From: Bdellovibrio sp. ArHS
GTDB lineage: Bacteria; Bdellovibrionota; Bdellovibrionia; Bdellovibrionales; Bdellovibrionaceae
NCBI RefSeq assembly: GCF_000786105.1
Contig: NZ_JTEV01000019.1
Span: forward strand, 1 to 64,000
DNA: 64,000 nt
Direction of reading: 5' to 3'
The translations under genes were made by a program, and so were the position numbers. This document shows positions 39,150 to 47,460 of the stretch, piece after piece. The notes below the pieces were generated by a model, which saw only the letters and a program-made list of their open reading frames with translations, did no database searches and was not told the origin of the DNA. The stretch's first letter is position 1. Every line of letters begins with the position of its first letter.

Positions 39150-40019
39150 TTACTTCAACATAGATTTCAAAGTGATTCCCATCTCTGCCGGAGAGCGAGA
39201 GATCTTACAGCCAGCAGACATCAAAGCTTCGAACTTCGCTTCTGCGGTGCCTTTGCCACCACTGATGATCGCACCGGCGTGACCCATACGTTTACCTTTA
39301 GGAGCTGCCGCACCTGCGATGAACGCTGTCACTGGCTTTTTGAATTCACGTTTGATGTACTCAGCCGCTTCTTCTTCGGCGGATCCACCGATTTCACCGA
39401 TCATGATCACGGCGTCAGTGTCTTTGTCTTTGTTGTACATTTCTAGAACGTCGATGAAGTTTGTTCCGTTCACTGGGTCACCACCGATACCTACGCAAGT
39501 AGATTGGCCAAGGCCCAATGCCGTCAATTGACCGACAGCTTCGTAAGTCAATGTGCCAGAGCGAGAAAGAACGCCGATACGACCTGGTTTGTGAATGTGA
39601 CCAGGCATGATACCGATTTTACATTCACCTGGAGTGATCACGCCCGGGCAGTTTGGACCCACTAGGCGAGTCTTCTTGCCTTGCATGAATTTTTTAACCT
39701 TCACCATGTCTAAAACCGGAATGCCTTCAGTGATACAAATCACTAGATCCAACTCAGCGTCGACAGCTTCCATGATGGAGTCTGCTGCAAATGGAGGTGG
39801 AACGAAGATAACAGAGGCATTACAGCCGGTTTTTTCTTTGGCATCAGCCACTGTGTTGAACACAGGAAGACCGATGTGAGTTGTGCCACCTTTACCCGGA
39901 GTCACACCACCAACCATTTTAGTTCCGTAGGCAACGGCTTGCTCAGAGTGGAAAGTGCCTTGAGCTCCAGTGAAACCTTGGCAGATAACTTTTGTGTCTT
40001 TGTTAATAAGAATTGCCAT
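39150..40019 (-). CDS. sucD: Succinyl-CoA synthetase alpha subunit
   Basis: It forms succinate and (G/A)TP from succinyl-CoA in the TCA cycle. The 289 residues bind CoA in the N-terminal Rossmann fold ([20 protein letters not shown]). [17 protein letters not shown] and the phosphorylated His in [12 protein letters not shown] are intact. It is 5 bp after sucC and is the last gene of the unit. Confidence 0.96.
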
Positions 40020-40024
40020 GTCGA

Positions 40025-41188
40025 TTATCCTTTTACCGCAGCAACGATCTTTTTAGCTGCATCTGTGAGGTCGTCAGCAGGAGTGATATTCAATCCGCTT
40101 TCTCTCAACATTTTTTTACCAAGTTCTACGTTTGTACCTTCAAGACGGCACACAAGAGGAACTTTCAAACCCAACTCTTTAGAAGCCGCGATCACACCTT
40201 CCGCAATGATGTCGCATTTCATGATACCACCGAAGATATTGACCAAGATTCCCTTTACGTTCGGATCTTTAAGAATGATTTTGAAAGCCGCAGTCACTTT
40301 TTCTTTGTTGGCACCGCCGCCGACATCCAAGAAGTTCGCTGGAGAAGCGCCGTGAAGCTTGATGATATCCAGAGTGGCCATCGCCAGGCCCGCACCGTTC
40401 ACAAGGCAGCCGATGTTGCCATCAAGCTTGATGAACGCTAGGTCGTATTTGGATGCTTCGATTTCAGAAGGTTCTTCTTCATTCAAGTCACGAAGTTCTA
40501 CGATGTCTTGATGTCTGAAAAGGGCGTTGGAATCGAAGTTCATCTTTGCGTCCAAACAAAGAACTTCGCCTTCTTTAGTCACAACAAGAGGATTGATTTC
40601 CGCAATCGAGCAATCTGTCGTCACGAAAGCGTTATAAAGGCCTTGGAAGAATTTAACTGCTTTATTCACGATTTCCGGAGCCATGCCGATTTTGAAAGCC
40701 AATTGGCGAGCTTGGAAAGGCATCAAGCCCACAGTCGGATCGATATCAACTTTGATGATCGCTTCCGGATGTTTTTCCGCAACTTCCTCGATGTCCATGC
40801 CGCCTTCAGAAGAAGCCATCATGGCGGCTCTTCCTGTTGCACGGTCGATCAAACACGCCACATAGTATTCTTTGGCAATGTTGCAACCCTGTTCGATGAA
40901 AACTTTTTGAACAACTTTACCTTCAGGACCCGTTTGGTGAGTCACCAAAGTCATGCCGATCATTTTTTTAGTTAGATCTTCAACTTCTTGCAAAGTCTTA
41001 GCGATCTTAACGCCGCCGCCTTTACCGCGGCCGCCAGCGTGAATCTGAGCTTTGACAACCCAAAGATTTCCACCGATTTCTTTTGCAGCAGCTACTGCCT
41101 CTTCAGGTGAGTGTGCGACTTTACCCTTTAAAGTCGCTACGCCAAATTTTCTGAGAATCTCTTTGGCCTGATACTCATGAATATTCAT
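40025..41188 (-). CDS. sucC: Succinyl-CoA synthetase beta subunit
   Basis: This ATP-grasp nucleotide-binding partner of SucD has 387 residues starting [17 protein letters not shown]. Motifs are [18 protein letters not shown] (ATP lid), [12 protein letters not shown] and [17 protein letters not shown]. The full family length is present. It follows mdh with a hairpin between them that may reduce, but probably does not block, read-through. Confidence 0.96.
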
Positions 41189-41211
41189 TTTATCTCCAAT
41201 TCTAATTCAGA

Positions 41212-41234
41212 AAAGGCCTCTTTAAGAGGCCTTT
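41212..41234 (-). terminator. Hairpin between mdh and sucC (partial terminator)
   Basis: AAAGGCCTC-TTTAA-GAGGCCTTT with only a TTTTC run on the minus strand. It could attenuate expression of sucCD relative to mdh. Confidence 0.55.
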
Positions 41235-41254
41235 AATCTTGCGCTAAAGCGCGA

Positions 41255-42199
41255 TTACTGTACGTTTTTAAGAGCAGACACAAGTGTGCGAACCGCGTCT
41301 ACTGATTTTTTGAATTCTTCTTGTTCCGCAGAGTTCATTTCGAACTTGTGAACTTTTTCGATACCTTTGCCACCGATGGTCGCAAGAACACCGACCATCA
41401 AGCCTTCATTCACGCCGAACTCACCAGTCAACTCGACTGCAACTGGAAGAACTCGTTTTTGGTCTTTAAGGATAGCTTCTGCCATTTCAACTGCACCACG
41501 AGAAGGAGCGTAGTAAGCAGAACCTGTTTTCAAGTGACCGCCGATTTCCGCGCCCGCTTGTTTAGTTCTTGCCACGATCGCTGCGATTTTATCAGCCGGA
41601 AGAAGCTCTGTAAGAGGAATACCAGAAACAGAAGCTTGGCGAACAAGAGGCATCATCGCATCACCGTGATTGCCGATAACGATACCAGTGACGTCTTTGA
41701 CAGAGACATTCAATTCTTCTGCGATGAAGGCACGGAAACGTGCTGAATCCAAGCAACCGCCCATGCCAAGGACGCGCTCACGAGGGAAGCCCAGGATTTG
41801 TTTTGCGTAAACGGCCATAACGTCCATAGGGTTACAAACCACGATCACAAAAGAATTTGGTGCGTACTTTTTCACGCCTTCACAAACATCTTTTACGATT
41901 TTCGCATTGATACCCACAAGCTCATCGCGGCTCATGCCCGGTTTGCGTGGCATACCGGCAGTGATGATAACAACATCAGAATCTGCGATATCTTCGTACT
42001 TGTTAGTGCCTTTGATTTTTGTATCAAACATTTCAATTGGACCGGCTTGCGCTAGATCCAAAGCTTTACCAATGGCTGCACCTTCATTGATGTCCAAGAT
42101 GACAACATCGCCAAGTTCTTTTTGAGCTGCCCAGTGAGCAGTAGTTGAACCAACGAAACCTGCGCCGATAACGGCAATTTTATTTCTTTTGTGAGCCAT
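41255..42199 (-). CDS. mdh: Malate dehydrogenase (LDH-like)
   Basis: It interconverts malate and oxaloacetate with NAD. The 314 residues show the nucleotide fold IAVIGAGFVGSTTAHW, the substrate-specificity Arg in AGMPRKPGMSRDEL, CLDSARFRAFIAEEL and the catalytic His in GNHGDAMMP. The Arg at the loop supports malate rather than lactate. It heads mdh-sucC-sucD, three TCA genes together. Confidence 0.95.
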   Translation of the reverse strand: MAHKRNKIAVIGAGFVGSTTAHWAAQKELGDVVILDINEGAAIGKALDLAQAGPIEMFDTKIKGTNKYEDIADSDVVIITAGMPRKPGMSRDELVGINAKIVKDVCEGVKKYAPNSFVIVVCNPMDVMAVYAKQILGFPRERVLGMGGCLDSARFRAFIAEELNVSVKDVTGIVIGNHGDAMMPLVRQASVSGIPLTELLPADKIAAIVARTKQAGAEIGGHLKTGSAYYAPSRGAVEMAEAILKDQKRVLPVAVELTGEFGVNEGLMVGVLATIGGKGIEKVHKFEMNSAEQEEFKKSVDAVRTLVSALKNVQ

Positions 42200-42336: not shown

Positions 42337-43092
42337 ATGAGTATGATCCGCCTGCAAGATATCAAGGTCGCCTTCGACAACCACGTGGTGTTAGGCAATG
42401 TGAGTCTTGATATTATGGCCGGTGAATGTTTCGTTATTGTCGGCCCTAGTGGGCAAGGAAAAACCACCCTTCTGAAAACCATGTCAGGGCTGATAACCCC
42501 TCAAAATGGCAAAGTTTTTATTGAACAAAACGACTGGGCAACGCTTGGCAGCAAACAGCGCCTTCCGGTGCTTAAAAGAATGGGAATTTTATTTCAAAAG
42601 AACGCGCTGTTTGATTCCCTTACCTGTGTCGAAAACATCTGTTTTCCTTTGCGGGAAACGACGAAGCTGACCGATTGGGAAATTACAAAAAAAGCAGAAT
42701 ACTTTTTGGACGCCGTGGGAATTCCCCATGCACGCGATTTGTACCCTGACGAAATCAGTGGCGGGATGCAAAAACGCCTCGGAATTGCTAGAGCGCTCGC
42801 TCTAGATCCCGAAATTATTTTTTATGACGATCCCACCGCCGGTCTAGATCCAATCACGTCAAAAAAGATCATTGAACTTATTCTTAAATTAAAAATGGAA
42901 AAAAAATCGACGGTCGTCGCAATCACAAATGACATGAATCGAGCTTATCAAATGGCAGATCGAATCGGTGTCGTGGTTGATCAGCAGTTGATTATCACCG
43001 GAACTCCTGAACAAACACAGAACCATCCGGACCCGCGCGTTCATCAATTTGTCCGAGGCTTACTTGAAGGGCCACTGACGGCGATGAACTGA
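42337..43092 (+). CDS. MlaF-like ABC ATPase 1, with altered catalytic residues
   Basis: This 251-residue ATPase belongs to an Mce/Mla-type lipid transporter. Walker A is intact (GPSGQGKT, 36-43) and the signature is intact (SGGMQ, 141-145). However, the catalytic Glu after Walker B is Asp (FYD164-D165-PTAGLDP) and the H-loop His is Asn (AITN198-D). The second ATPase (43606) has these residues but an altered signature. I infer that the two form a heterodimer in which the site built from this Walker A/B is degenerate. It lies upstream of DUF2784 and the rest of the cluster. Confidence 0.88.
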   Translation: MSMIRLQDIKVAFDNHVVLGNVSLDIMAGECFVIVGPSGQGKTTLLKTMSGLITPQNGKVFIEQNDWATLGSKQRLPVLKRMGILFQKNALFDSLTCVENICFPLRETTKLTDWEITKKAEYFLDAVGIPHARDLYPDEISGGMQKRLGIARALALDPEIIFYDDPTAGLDPITSKKIIELILKLKMEKKSTVVAITNDMNRAYQMADRIGVVVDQQLIITGTPEQTQNHPDPRVHQFVRGLLEGPLTAMN

Positions 43093-43167
43093 GTTTTCTG
43101 TTCAGTAAGAAACTGTTTTTCATTCACTGGATCTTTTGGATCATTCGTAAGTGAGTATTCTGAGCTC

Positions 43168-43563
43168 ATGATCAACGAATACGGAGCTGACTTCGTTCTT
43201 TATTGCCACTTTCTTTATGTTTTTACCATTCTTATTCCAATTCCCCTGATAGTTATTGGTGGATGGTTGGATTGGAAATGGGTGCGAAATCTTTGGCTTC
43301 GTCGGATTCATCTGGCGATGATTGGAATTGTCGTCGTCGAGTCAGTATTTGGGATCGCATGTCCGTTGACGGTCTGGGAAGAACATCTGCGAGGGGTGGT
43401 CGACGAGCCGACGCACTACGAGTCGGGCTTTGTGGCGCAGTGGATTTCGAAGATTCTATTTCAAGACTTCGAGCCCTGGGTTTTCATAACTATATACCTA
43501 TTGGGTGCGGCGGTGATTACCGGACTTTATTTAAAAGTCCCGCCTCAGAAGCCCCACTACTAA
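43168..43563 (+). CDS. DUF2784 small membrane protein
   Basis: It has 131 residues with about four membrane helices: FVLYCHFLYVFTILIPIPLI, the RRIHLAMIGIVVVESVFGIA segment with the family CPLTVWE motif, and a C-terminal helix YLLGAAVITGLYL. The function of the family is unknown. It sits within the lipid-transport cluster, between the two ATPase genes, so it may be a partner, but no evidence beyond position is visible. Confidence 0.82.
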   Translation: MINEYGADFVLYCHFLYVFTILIPIPLIVIGGWLDWKWVRNLWLRRIHLAMIGIVVVESVFGIACPLTVWEEHLRGVVDEPTHYESGFVAQWISKILFQDFEPWVFITIYLLGAAVITGLYLKVPPQKPHY

Positions 43564-43605
43564 ATGCTGGTTGACCCGCGAAGTTGCGGCCCACTACCAT
43601 GAGAT

Positions 43606-44337
43606 GTGATCGAATTTAAAAACCTCGTAAAGAGATTTGGAACCAGGACTGTGCTTAACGGATTAAGTCTCAAAATCCGCGAGGGAGAGATCATTTTTAT
43701 TTTGGGGACATCGGGGACAGGTAAGTCCGTCCTACTTAAGAATCTGGTCGGTCTTTTAACGCCTGATGAAGGTGAAATCTGGATTGATGACGAAGAAGTA
43801 TCTAAATTTACGGAAGAACAATATCTTCCCGTCCGCAAAAAATGCGGCATGGTCTTTCAGCATCCCGCTTTGTTCGATTCTCTAACTGTTTTTGAAAACG
43901 TCGCTTTCGGACTTCGTCGTCATTACAATCTTGATGAGGCGACAATCAAAGAAAAGGTGACGAAAGCTTTGCGACTGGTCAACCTGCAAGGTATCGAGCA
44001 GAAAACTCCGGCACAGATTTCCTACGGAATGCAAAAGCGGGTCAGTTTAGCGCGAACCGTGGCCCTAGAACCTAGAGTTCTACTTTTTGATGAGCCCACG
44101 ACCGGCCTTGATCCCGTGACAACCACAGCGGTGAATCAACTTATTTTGGATCTTTCACGAACTTTGAAAACCACTTCTTTGGTGGTCAGCCACGATATGA
44201 ATTGTGCTTTAACCATTGCTGACCGCATTGTTGTTTTGGACAAGGGAAGTATTGTTGCCCAGGGAACTCCGGAAGAATTGAAAAAATCTGACCATCCACT
44301 AGTAAAAGACTTTCTATCTGAGGTTCTGAGCGCATGA
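43606..44337 (+). CDS. MlaF-like ABC ATPase 2, with altered signature motif
   Basis: This 243-residue ATPase starts at GTG. Walker A is GTSGTGKS (34-41), Walker B is normal with the catalytic Glu (LFD162-E163-PTTGLDP), and the H-loop is normal (SH196-D). The ABC signature reads SYGMQ (139-143) instead of SGGMQ. ATPase 1 has the complementary pattern. Two sites are predicted, one consensus (this Walker A/B with the other's SGGMQ) and one degenerate. It overlaps the first permease by ATGA. Confidence 0.9.
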   Translation: MIEFKNLVKRFGTRTVLNGLSLKIREGEIIFILGTSGTGKSVLLKNLVGLLTPDEGEIWIDDEEVSKFTEEQYLPVRKKCGMVFQHPALFDSLTVFENVAFGLRRHYNLDEATIKEKVTKALRLVNLQGIEQKTPAQISYGMQKRVSLARTVALEPRVLLFDEPTTGLDPVTTTAVNQLILDLSRTLKTTSLVVSHDMNCALTIADRIVVLDKGSIVAQGTPEELKKSDHPLVKDFLSEVLSA

Positions 44338-45113
44338 CTCTTCTGATTTCTATTCTGGATGAAGTCGGGGGAGCCCTTCTTTTTCTTAAAAAAATCCTGG
44401 AATCTTTAGTTCGCAAACAAATTAAAACGCACGAAGTTTTCGAGCAAATCTGGAAAGTCACGGCAGACAGCTTTTTTACCACCGCGATGGCGGGTTTTTT
44501 TGTCGGCGCCATAATGACGGTTCAGTTTGCCTTGCAAATGAAAGAGTTTGGCGCCCTGGGGTATCTTGGTGGACTTGCGACCAGCGGAACCTTTCGTGAA
44601 GTGGGTCCCTTATTAATTGCTTTCATGTTAAGTGGAAAAGTCGGTGCCTTTACATCGGCGGAACTTGGCACCATGCGTGTGACTGAACAAATCGATGCTG
44701 TTCGATGCTTAGGTGCTGATCCCATCCAGGAAATCATCGCGCCTCGTTTTCTGGGAATTATTATCTCTAGCTTCTTTCTTTTAGGTGGCGGCCTGATCAT
44801 GTCCGTGTTTGGCGGAATGTTGATGGGCTATGCATTCGCCGGCGTCAATTTTGAAGAATATCTTCGTCATGTCCCGATGATTGTTAGTCCAGTTTCTATT
44901 TTAAGCGGCGTCATCAAGTGTGGGGCGTTTGCTCTTGTTTTGGCGACAATCTGCACCTTCAAGGGATTTACCACAACAGGAGGGGCGAAGGGCGTTGGCC
45001 GTGCCGTGGTTGCGACTTCTGTTAGCACGATGATCTGTATTGTCGTCGTCGACTGGATGACAAGCTTTCTAGGAGAGGTCATTTTACAAATGATTCGGGG
45101 GTATCGTTCATGA
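44334..45113 (+). CDS. MlaE-like permease 1
   Basis: The inner-membrane permease of the Mce/Mla transporter has 259 residues with five or six helices. The MlaE signature includes FREVGPLLIAFMLSGKVGAFTSAELGTMRVTEQIDA followed by LGADPIQEIIAPRFLG; the phrase GTMRVTEQIDA contains the conserved EQ coupling region. It overlaps ATPase 2 and permease 2 by ATGA on each side, so all three are translated as one unit. Confidence 0.9.
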   Translation: MTLLISILDEVGGALLFLKKILESLVRKQIKTHEVFEQIWKVTADSFFTTAMAGFFVGAIMTVQFALQMKEFGALGYLGGLATSGTFREVGPLLIAFMLSGKVGAFTSAELGTMRVTEQIDAVRCLGADPIQEIIAPRFLGIIISSFFLLGGGLIMSVFGGMLMGYAFAGVNFEEYLRHVPMIVSPVSILSGVIKCGAFALVLATICTFKGFTTTGGAKGVGRAVVATSVSTMICIVVVDWMTSFLGEVILQMIRGYRS

Positions 45114-45829
45114 TCGCGTTGATCGCTGAAACCATGACCGGAATCTTCAGTCCGCCTTTTCGCCGGAAAGAGTTCTTTCAACAGCTTTATTTCGTGGCCA
45201 ATAAAAGTCTTCTTATTATTCTGTTCTGCGTTTCATTTGCCGCCATTGTCACGATCCTAGAATCCTCTTTTCACATGAAATTGGTGATTCAAAATGATTC
45301 GATGGTGCCCGGATTTGCCGCGCTTCTGATTTTACGAGAATTAGGGGCAATCCTGACAGCTCTTCTTCTGACATCAAGAGTAGGAGCGGGATATGCTTCC
45401 GAAGTTGGCACGATGCAAATCACAGAACAGGTCGATGCCTTTAAAATGTTGGGTATTGATCCGGTAAACTATCTGGTGGTGCCGCGCTTTTTAGCCTGTG
45501 TTCTCGGCTGTATGATGTTGACGATTATTGCGAACATGACCTGCATTTTTTCGGCAATGCTCGTCAGTCAAAATTACTTGGGATACACGCCCTCGATGTT
45601 TTTGACTTCGATGGATCGATTTGTCCAGTTTCAAGATATGGTTTTCGCGGCAATCAAAGGGGCCTGTTTCGGTGGCGTGATCCCTATCGTGGCGTGCTAT
45701 TTCGGCTTTCGCTGTCAACAAGGCGCAGAGGGTGTCGGCAGAGCGACGACGAATACAGTGGTCGTGGCTTCTATTGCAATTATTGTGATTGATTTTATTT
45801 TATCCTATACTTTTAGTTATCTTTATTAG
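45110..45829 (+). CDS. MlaE-like permease 2
   Basis: The second permease has 239 residues. The family region appears as LRELGAILTALLLTSRVGAG and GTMQITEQVDAFKMLG, with PVNYLVVPRFLACVLG after it. It differs enough from permease 1 that the two are probably an old heteromeric pair, not a recent copy. It overlaps permease 1 by ATGA and is followed by the MCE gene 8 bp later. Confidence 0.9.
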   Translation: MIALIAETMTGIFSPPFRRKEFFQQLYFVANKSLLIILFCVSFAAIVTILESSFHMKLVIQNDSMVPGFAALLILRELGAILTALLLTSRVGAGYASEVGTMQITEQVDAFKMLGIDPVNYLVVPRFLACVLGCMMLTIIANMTCIFSAMLVSQNYLGYTPSMFLTSMDRFVQFQDMVFAAIKGACFGGVIPIVACYFGFRCQQGAEGVGRATTNTVVVASIAIIVIDFILSYTFSYLY

Positions 45830-45837
45830 GAGAACGT

Positions 45838-46614
45838 ATGAAGGTTGAAACCAAGGTAGGTTTGCTGGCTCTTGTCTCTGTGGCGCTCATCGTAGTGTTC
45901 GCCTACTTTATGGGTTTTATTTCTCCTTTCACGAATGCGAAAGAACTCAATGTGATGTTTAACTATGCCGGCGGTATCGAAGAAGGATCTCCTGTCCGGG
46001 TTATGGGTATCAAAGTGGGCAAGGTAAAAGCGATTCACTTCGATCCAGCTTATAAAATGGCCAGCGGTGAAGAAGTTAAGCTGCGTTTGACCATCACCAT
46101 TGATAAAAAGGCCTGGACCAGCGTCCGTAAAGATTCCAAATTTTTCATCAATCTTGCTGGGGTTATTGGGGAAAAGTTTCTGGAAATTTCCCCGGGAAGC
46201 GCGGAAGCGGGTGAATTTTCTTCGGGAGACTATGTTCGAGGGGAAGATCCTCCAAGAATTGATCAGTTGATCTCACAAAGCTACGGATTGGCAGGAAAGC
46301 TGATTGATTTGGTGGAAAAAAACGAAGGCTCCGTCAGCAATATGATTCAACAACTGGACAGATTGACGACAAACTTCAACAAAACACTGGTTCTTTTGGA
46401 CAAAACCACCAAGAATCAGGATGTAGCAAGATTGCTTGATAACGCGGTCAAAATCAGCGATGACATGGCATATTTTACTCACAATATGAGATCTAAGAAA
46501 GCGGAAGAAACTTATGACTTAGTTCATAAGCTCCTTTTTAGATTGGAACCATTAGATGGTCCCGCGATAAAAAAGTTTCTTCAGGAAGAAGGCGTAAGAG
46601 CCCGGATTTTCTAG
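45838..46614 (+). CDS. MCE/MlaD-domain protein
   Basis: The 258 residues have an N-terminal membrane helix (VGLLALVSVALIVVFAYFMG) and one MCE domain (about 34-120: ELNVMFNYAGGIEEGSPVRV, GIKVGKVKAI). A helical C-terminal part (about 140-258) could form a tunnel as in other MCE hexamers. Such proteins move lipids between membranes. It is the only MCE protein in the cluster and has no lipobox. Confidence 0.9.
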   Translation: MKVETKVGLLALVSVALIVVFAYFMGFISPFTNAKELNVMFNYAGGIEEGSPVRVMGIKVGKVKAIHFDPAYKMASGEEVKLRLTITIDKKAWTSVRKDSKFFINLAGVIGEKFLEISPGSAEAGEFSSGDYVRGEDPPRIDQLISQSYGLAGKLIDLVEKNEGSVSNMIQQLDRLTTNFNKTLVLLDKTTKNQDVARLLDNAVKISDDMAYFTHNMRSKKAEETYDLVHKLLFRLEPLDGPAIKKFLQEEGVRARIF

Positions 46615-46635: not shown

Positions 46636-47460
46636 ATGTTAAAAGTTTCAGCGTGTTCCTTGGGAGCACTCCTTTTCTTGAGTCTTGGTCAGGCCCATGC
46701 GGCTCCTTTGAACCTTGGCTCTGATGCGGCGACAATCAAAACCAAATCGCGCTCTATCGAAGCCGAATACGCCCGCGACATCCGCCGCCAAAATCAGGCG
46801 GAATCCCTTGAAGAAAATCCCCAGCAAGGTGCATTGGTTATCGAGGCTGGCACGACCAAGCAAGAGACGCTTGCGGCACCCGCGGCTGTTTCAAAACCAC
46901 AAAGATCTACATCAAGCGATGCGATTCACTCTATTCCTGGAGCCACAAACACTTATTACAGTGGCTCAAATGGATACTCTTACGACACAACACTGAAGAT
47001 GCGCGCTGAAAGAAAAGTGGGAGCGGGAGTCGCTGTCGGGGGATCCTTGGGCCTTGCGGGCTTCAATATGGAATTAAATTTCGAAGATGCCGATGGTGTT
47101 CTTGCAGGTTTTGGCACTGGACCGGGCTACAACACTGTTCAAGTGGCATGGAAGCACGCTTTCGATGGCGATTTCTTGGCTCCATATACAACGGTGGGAT
47201 ACTCCCGTTGGTACAATTCGCGTGGCAGATCCAGCGATTACGAAAATTCTGATATCCTGGACCGGGTTTTGACTGAAAACGAAAAGAAAACCGGCCGTTT
47301 TGGCACAGATTTTGTCAATGCGTCAGCAGGTCTTCAATATAATCAACTCAATGGCGAATTCGCGGGCTTGTCCTTCTTCGGCGAGTTGACGGCGATGTGG
47401 GAAGTAAAACGTTCGATGATTCTTCCCAGCGGATCTGTTGGTGCGATCTACTATTTCTAA
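46636..47460 (+). CDS. Putative outer-membrane beta-barrel protein of the MCE cluster
   Basis: The 274 residues have a signal peptide ending QAHAA, a disordered, charged N-terminal part (to about 110), and a C-terminal half of alternating strands rich in aromatic ends (YDTTLKMRAERKVGAG, FLAPYTTVGYSRWYNS). It ends in YYF, a typical outer-membrane barrel terminus. It follows the MCE gene by 21 bp, so it could be the outer-membrane part of this transporter (inference). Confidence 0.6.
   Translation: MLKVSACSLGALLFLSLGQAHAAPLNLGSDAATIKTKSRSIEAEYARDIRRQNQAESLEENPQQGALVIEAGTTKQETLAAPAAVSKPQRSTSSDAIHSIPGATNTYYSGSNGYSYDTTLKMRAERKVGAGVAVGGSLGLAGFNMELNFEDADGVLAGFGTGPGYNTVQVAWKHAFDGDFLAPYTTVGYSRWYNSRGRSSDYENSDILDRVLTENEKKTGRFGTDFVNASAGLQYNQLNGEFAGLSFFGELTAMWEVKRSMILPSGSVGAIYYF

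Follow-up and report, generated by a model that had tools for sequence, protein, structure and literature searches.

Among the ATPases of MCE transporters that we examined, or that we found described in the literature searched, related motors pair with themselves. In the MlaFEDB phospholipid transporter of Escherichia coli and Acinetobacter baumannii, MlaF and MlaE are both homodimers, accompanied by MlaB and a 25-residue C-terminal handshake (PMC7367683). In mycobacterial Mce1, a YrbE1A/YrbE1B heterodimer of the MlaE family feeds the Mce1A-F ring, a heterohexamer of MCE proteins, and the ATPase MceG, which carries a C-terminal extension of 120 residues, forms a homodimer (PMC9882608). The MlaEFD system of Veillonella parvula lacks MlaB and includes an outer-membrane barrel in its pathway (PMC10665443). 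The contrast to these systems is an operon of Bdellovibrio sp. ArHS, located at positions 42337-46614 on the plus strand of contig NZ_JTEV01000019.1, within the 64,000-nucleotide stretch analyzed here (the window, positions 1 to 64,000), which encodes two different ATPases, termed ATP1 and ATP2. The operon shares MlaF-, MlaE-, and MlaD-family subunits with MlaFEDB, but it has two distinct ATPases and two distinct permeases, both conserved throughout the phylum, and no STAS gene. It resembles Mce1 in its predicted permease heterodimer of the MlaE family and differs from it in having two different ATPases and only one MCE gene. In V. parvula a long MlaD carries the outer-membrane domain as a fusion and there is only one MlaF, whereas here the barrel gene is separate and the ATPases are paired.

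In ATP-binding cassette (ABC) transporters, each ATP site is built from the Walker motifs and H-loop of one nucleotide-binding domain (NBD) and the signature motif of the other (PMC7756269, PMC5626490). ATP1 (42337-43092) and ATP2 (43606-44337, GTG start) are both MlaF-like NBDs (ABC_tran, 2.3e-32 and 1.2e-36, respectively), with 39% identity to each other in a pairwise comparison and with MlaF as the best PDB sequence match of each. Alignment to the solved MlaF places Asp165 of ATP1 at the position of the catalytic Glu, Asn198 of ATP1 at that of the H-loop His, and Tyr140 of ATP2 at that of the first Gly of the LSGGM signature. In ATP1, Walker A runs from residue 36, followed by SGGM at 141-144 (in SGGMQ), D164-D165-P-T and T197-N198-D-M; in ATP2, Walker A runs from residue 34, followed by S139-Y140-G-M (in SYGMQ), D162-E163-P-T and S195-H196-D-M. 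The signature Met, a typical feature of Mla/TGD-like MCE ATPases (PMC7367683), is kept in ATP1 and in most ATP2 proteins. The original prediction for this DNA had named these diagnostic residues and the gene set of the operon; the residues were exact when verified against the solved MlaF, and Pfam searches and open reading frame (ORF) calls found every gene where it had been placed. Judging from the distribution of these residues, the operon very probably encodes a MlaFE-like transporter in which ATP1 and ATP2 form an obligate heterodimer that sits on a heterodimer of permeases A and B, and in which one ATP site (site 1) is degenerate and the other (site 2) is hydrolytic. The heterodimer is the best reading because only the pairing of ATP1 with ATP2 unites Glu and His with a normal signature. 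Homodimers would contain no consensus site, since two copies of ATP1 would lack Glu and His at both sites and two copies of ATP2 would carry the altered signature at both.

When one genome per species was scanned, the operon was detected in about 29 Bdellovibrionota loci, and a phylum-wide search recovered ATP2, with matches of 4e-98 or lower, in 136 of 369 genomes. The order ATP1, ATP2, permease A, permease B and MCE, often followed by the barrel gene, is conserved in many families of the phylum. Residues were counted in 90 non-redundant ATP1/ATP2 pairs from Bdellovibrionota. ATP2 has Glu and His in all 90 pairs, with Tyr (78) or Phe (12) as the signature residue, and E163, H196 and S139-Y140-G141 are invariant in alignment A1; one extra ATP2 beyond the 90 pairs (genome G345) has the signature Ser-His-Gly. 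ATP1 has SGG in every pair, and the composite site made of ATP2 Glu/His and ATP1 SGG is consensus in 90/90. On the other hand, the H-loop His of ATP1 is lost in 88 pairs (77 Asn, 10 Ser, 1 Thr) and its catalytic Glu in 77 (76 Asp, 1 Ser), and no ATP1 retains both; the two that keep His have Asp (L089) or Ser (L079) in place of Glu. The Walker B and H-loop changes are confined to ATP1 and the signature change to ATP2 throughout, a complementary pattern that is far beyond chance, since it is the same in all of the non-redundant pairs. By comparison, Glu, His and SGG are kept in 15 single-copy MlaF relatives encoded next to a single MlaE (five of them in Bdellovibrionota, one in Nitrospina, and a further nine that belong mainly to other phyla) as well as in MlaF of E. 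coli and A. baumannii. The clustering of the changes into one degenerate and one consensus site, predicted from the window alone, thus recurs as the same partition across the pairs, and none of the single MlaF relatives read shows it. Outside Bdellovibrionota, no ATP2-like match at 1e-85 was obtained in 398 genomes of one other phylum, an empty search being weak evidence; in a second phylum, the six best of 43 matches were canonical single MlaF proteins, and further phyla were sampled via a few single genomes only.

ATP1 and ATP2 co-occur apart from assembly gaps. ATP1 lies above the search cut-off in 125 of the 136 genomes with ATP2. Of the eleven that remain, a diverged ATP1 adjoins ATP2 in four (G273, G276, G278, and G342), and in six a contig end interrupts the locus, part of ATP1 still being visible in G189, G205, G345, and G357 (the others being G258 and G358); a true ATP2 without ATP1 was therefore rejected for these six. 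The eleventh, G343, from the genus of G342, was left out of inspection. Four genomes with ATP1 fall below the ATP2 cut-off (G150, G330, G194, and G203), where ATP2 is cut by a contig end or by an N run, or is partly read. In two genomes ATP1 lies apart from the operon yet still beside mdh (G170 and G196; L152 5984-8980 and L159 6402-8688), and in G187 it is on another contig; loss of ATP1 was rejected for all three, as the gene was located elsewhere in each genome. Such detachment, together with ATP1-like orphan NBDs in some genomes, might be taken to mean that an ATP2 homodimer is the working motor, that ATP1 serves another transporter or a regulatory role, and that the gene order is incidental. 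This is very unlikely, however, given that the altered signature would sit at both sites of an ATP2 homodimer, that ATP1 adjoins ATP2 in nearly all loci and is retained even when moved, and that two different permeases match two different NBDs. Still less credible, to the point that we hardly consider it, is that ATP1 is a decaying paralogue becoming a functionless pseudo-ATPase: its branches are longer than those of ATP2 in several families, but Walker A, the Q-loop, the SGGM signature and the D-loop have stayed largely intact in the 90 pairs despite their deep divergence, and wherever ATP2 is retained, ATP1 has not disappeared.

A natural fusion suggests how the proposed ATP1/ATP2 heterodimer is oriented on its permeases. 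In genome G242 (L110 5609-7348), ATP2 and permease A are encoded, with a linker, in a single in-frame ORF of 580 amino acids, an arrangement that points to permease A as the docking site of ATP2; by elimination, ATP1 would dock on permease B.

In a mixture-model tree computed with the trait columns removed, ATP2 forms one lineage (support 99) and ATP1 another, the latter together with the ATP1-like orphan NBDs. Since each forms its own lineage, the ATP1/ATP2 split is older than the sampled families. These orphans are MlaF-type NBDs (L143-L151, L153-L158, L161, and L162) with Asp at the catalytic position and often an H-loop His; no MlaE or MCE gene was detected within the stretches fetched around them, and the orphan in L143 adjoins a P-type ATPase gene. 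A role of the orphan NBD as a second partner of ATP2 was not supported, as orphans are found in genomes without ATP2 (G131, G257, and G027).

In the proposed mechanism, the permease A/B heterodimer would feed one MCE ring. Site 1, composed of ATP1 Asp165/Asn198 and ATP2 Ser-Tyr-Gly, would bind ATP and hydrolyse it poorly or not at all, and site 2, composed of ATP2 Glu163/His196 and ATP1 Ser-Gly-Gly, would be the hydrolytic site. By analogy with CFTR, in which the degenerate site combines the altered Walker motifs and H-loop of NBD1 with an NBD2 signature that carries His1348 (PMC5626490), site 1 would probably hold its ATP for long as a hinge while site 2 opens and hydrolyses. Hydrolysis at site 2 would power the passage of lipids between the two permeases and the MCE ring.

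Several points weigh against this picture. Transport by ABCC1 was kept when the H-loop of its site 2 carried Asn or Gln (PMC7756269), and Asp at Walker B may allow slow hydrolysis, so that site 1 could be slow rather than dead. ATP1 keeps its Glu alongside an Asn, Ser or Thr H-loop in 13/90 pairs, mostly in family f26 and its neighbours. Asp165, which the original prediction had listed among the changes, is therefore present here but not constant, unlike the near-universal H-loop and signature changes; it is the least constant element and need not be the founding change. Furthermore, the occurrence of orphan NBDs in genomes without ATP2 indicates that an ATP1-type chain can live apart, and the structure predictions are of single chains, the complex being predicted here from sequence. 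Finally, the association between Tyr/Phe in ATP2 and Asn/Ser in ATP1 is strong in the raw table (Fisher, 7e-6), but the pair tree contains only 5-6 changes per trait; with just 3-5 independent changes behind it, the co-variation is inseparable from ancestry, and inter-subunit co-variation was dropped as an argument. Of the two expectations for orthologues in the original prediction, co-occurrence of the ATPases is clearly favourable, while strict co-variation of their residues is not demonstrable.

The tolerance of ABCC1 and the retained Glu165 would also suit a heterodimer in which both composite sites hydrolyse and the Asn H-loop, the Asp Walker B and the aromatic signature residue only tune the rates. 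We consider this unlikely, although the least unlikely of the alternatives: it is always one and the same composite site that is altered, with up to three catalytic or contact residues affected; the first signature Gly has given way to an aromatic residue in every pair; and none of these changes is seen in the single MlaF relatives read.

Pfam confirmed the order ATP1, DUF2784, ATP2, permease A, permease B and MCE, all on the plus strand. Permease A (44334-45113; PF02405, 6.1e-57) and permease B (45110-45829; PF02405, 1.6e-62) both match the MlaE family above the cut-off and share 29% identity. The MCE (MlaD-domain) protein (45838-46614; PF02470, 2.1e-19) consists of an N-terminal transmembrane helix, the MCE domain and a C-terminal stretch of ~115 residues. 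Its AlphaFold2 model has low confidence, with a mean predicted local distance difference test (pLDDT) score of 62.6 and a tail below 50, and past residue 140 it is too poor to judge the reach of the protein. With its MlaE permeases, MCE domain protein and MlaF-like ATPases, the operon has the features of an MlaE-fold lipid ABC transporter and is, on these sequence grounds, of the MCE/Mla type, with lipids as the presumed substrate.

The DUF2784 membrane protein (43168-43563, plus strand; PF10861, 1.3e-19) is encoded between the two ATPases in only about five Bdellovibrio species (the window, L049, L050, L051, and L060/L138). Because of this restriction it was rejected as a component of the transporter and is best seen as a local, species-level insertion outside the conserved system. 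Other species carry different insertions, of up to ~4 kb, between ATP1 and ATP2. Upstream of ATP1 in the window, mdh is divergent from ATP1, with sucC and sucD beyond (39150-42199). The contig of L012 (CALQIT020000001.1) is labelled Streptomyces griseus, yet its operon is typical of Bdellovibrionota; this label looks wrong.

Directly after the MCE gene, at 46636-47460 on the plus strand, we found a gene for a predicted 8-stranded outer-membrane beta-barrel protein that was absent from the original prediction and that follows MCE in many orthologous operons. The protein has a signal sequence and a C-terminal Phe; in its AlphaFold2 model the pLDDT of the barrel is mostly >90, and the nearest solved folds in Foldseek are the OprF/OmpA barrels (2.6e-5 and 5.3e-5). 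It is a candidate for the outer-membrane end of the lipid path. As anticipated in the original prediction, the operon contains no STAS-domain MlaB by gene calls and Pfam, and the sole clear STAS protein detected in the genome, encoded on contig C26, is below the STAS_2 cut-off. The lack of MlaB is unremarkable, as diderms commonly do without it (PMC10665443). Compared with MlaF, ATP1 ends about where the C-terminal extension of MlaF starts, and ATP2 ends earlier. Two further MlaE and MCE loci are present in the same genome on contigs 5 and 40 (L130 and L131), of which the contig 5 locus encodes a canonical single MlaF with Glu, His and SGG.

The distribution of changes at the ATP sites is like that in CFTR, TAP1/2, TM287/288, and BmrCD, which combine one consensus with one degenerate site and in which the Walker B Glu and the H-loop are changed in one NBD and the signature in the other. 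Unlike these asymmetric exporters, which have the Type IV fold, the operon encodes an MlaE-fold lipid transporter, and the asymmetry of its ATP sites is presumably of independent origin because of this difference in fold. A bolder proposal, which we put forward only tentatively and consider rather doubtful as a whole, is that an MCE transporter of Bdellovibrionota evolved a CFTR/TAP-like asymmetry independently, with a permanently ATP-loaded degenerate site that would hold the motor together, taking the place of MlaB and the C-terminal handshake of other Mla systems, and give directionality to a trans-envelope lipid conduit ending in a dedicated small outer-membrane barrel.

In the literature searched, we found no description of an asymmetric, heterodimeric or degenerate ATPase pair in an Mce/Mla system, a negative that is provisional, as subscription papers and preprints were mostly outside the search; Mce/Mla is not mentioned in the text of the transposon sequencing (Tn-seq) paper on Bdellovibrio (PMC6561027). 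With novelty accordingly provisional, we place the operon among the MCE/Mla lipid transporters as a variant not described so far, one that would function in the manner of asymmetric ABC transporters. Exporters, CFTR and TAP among them, are where degenerate ATP sites are best known, and the purpose of such sites is debated. If they arose separately in an MCE transporter, this would provide a natural replicate in a different transporter fold at the same positions, with Glu replaced by Asp or Ser, His by Asn or Ser, and the first signature Gly by Tyr, Phe or His. The natural intermediates, in which the H-loop and the signature are changed and Glu is kept, could reveal the sequence of changes by which a site is retired. 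Moreover, the direction of transport by Mce/Mla systems is argued over, and the system described here would allow each ATP site to be disabled separately.

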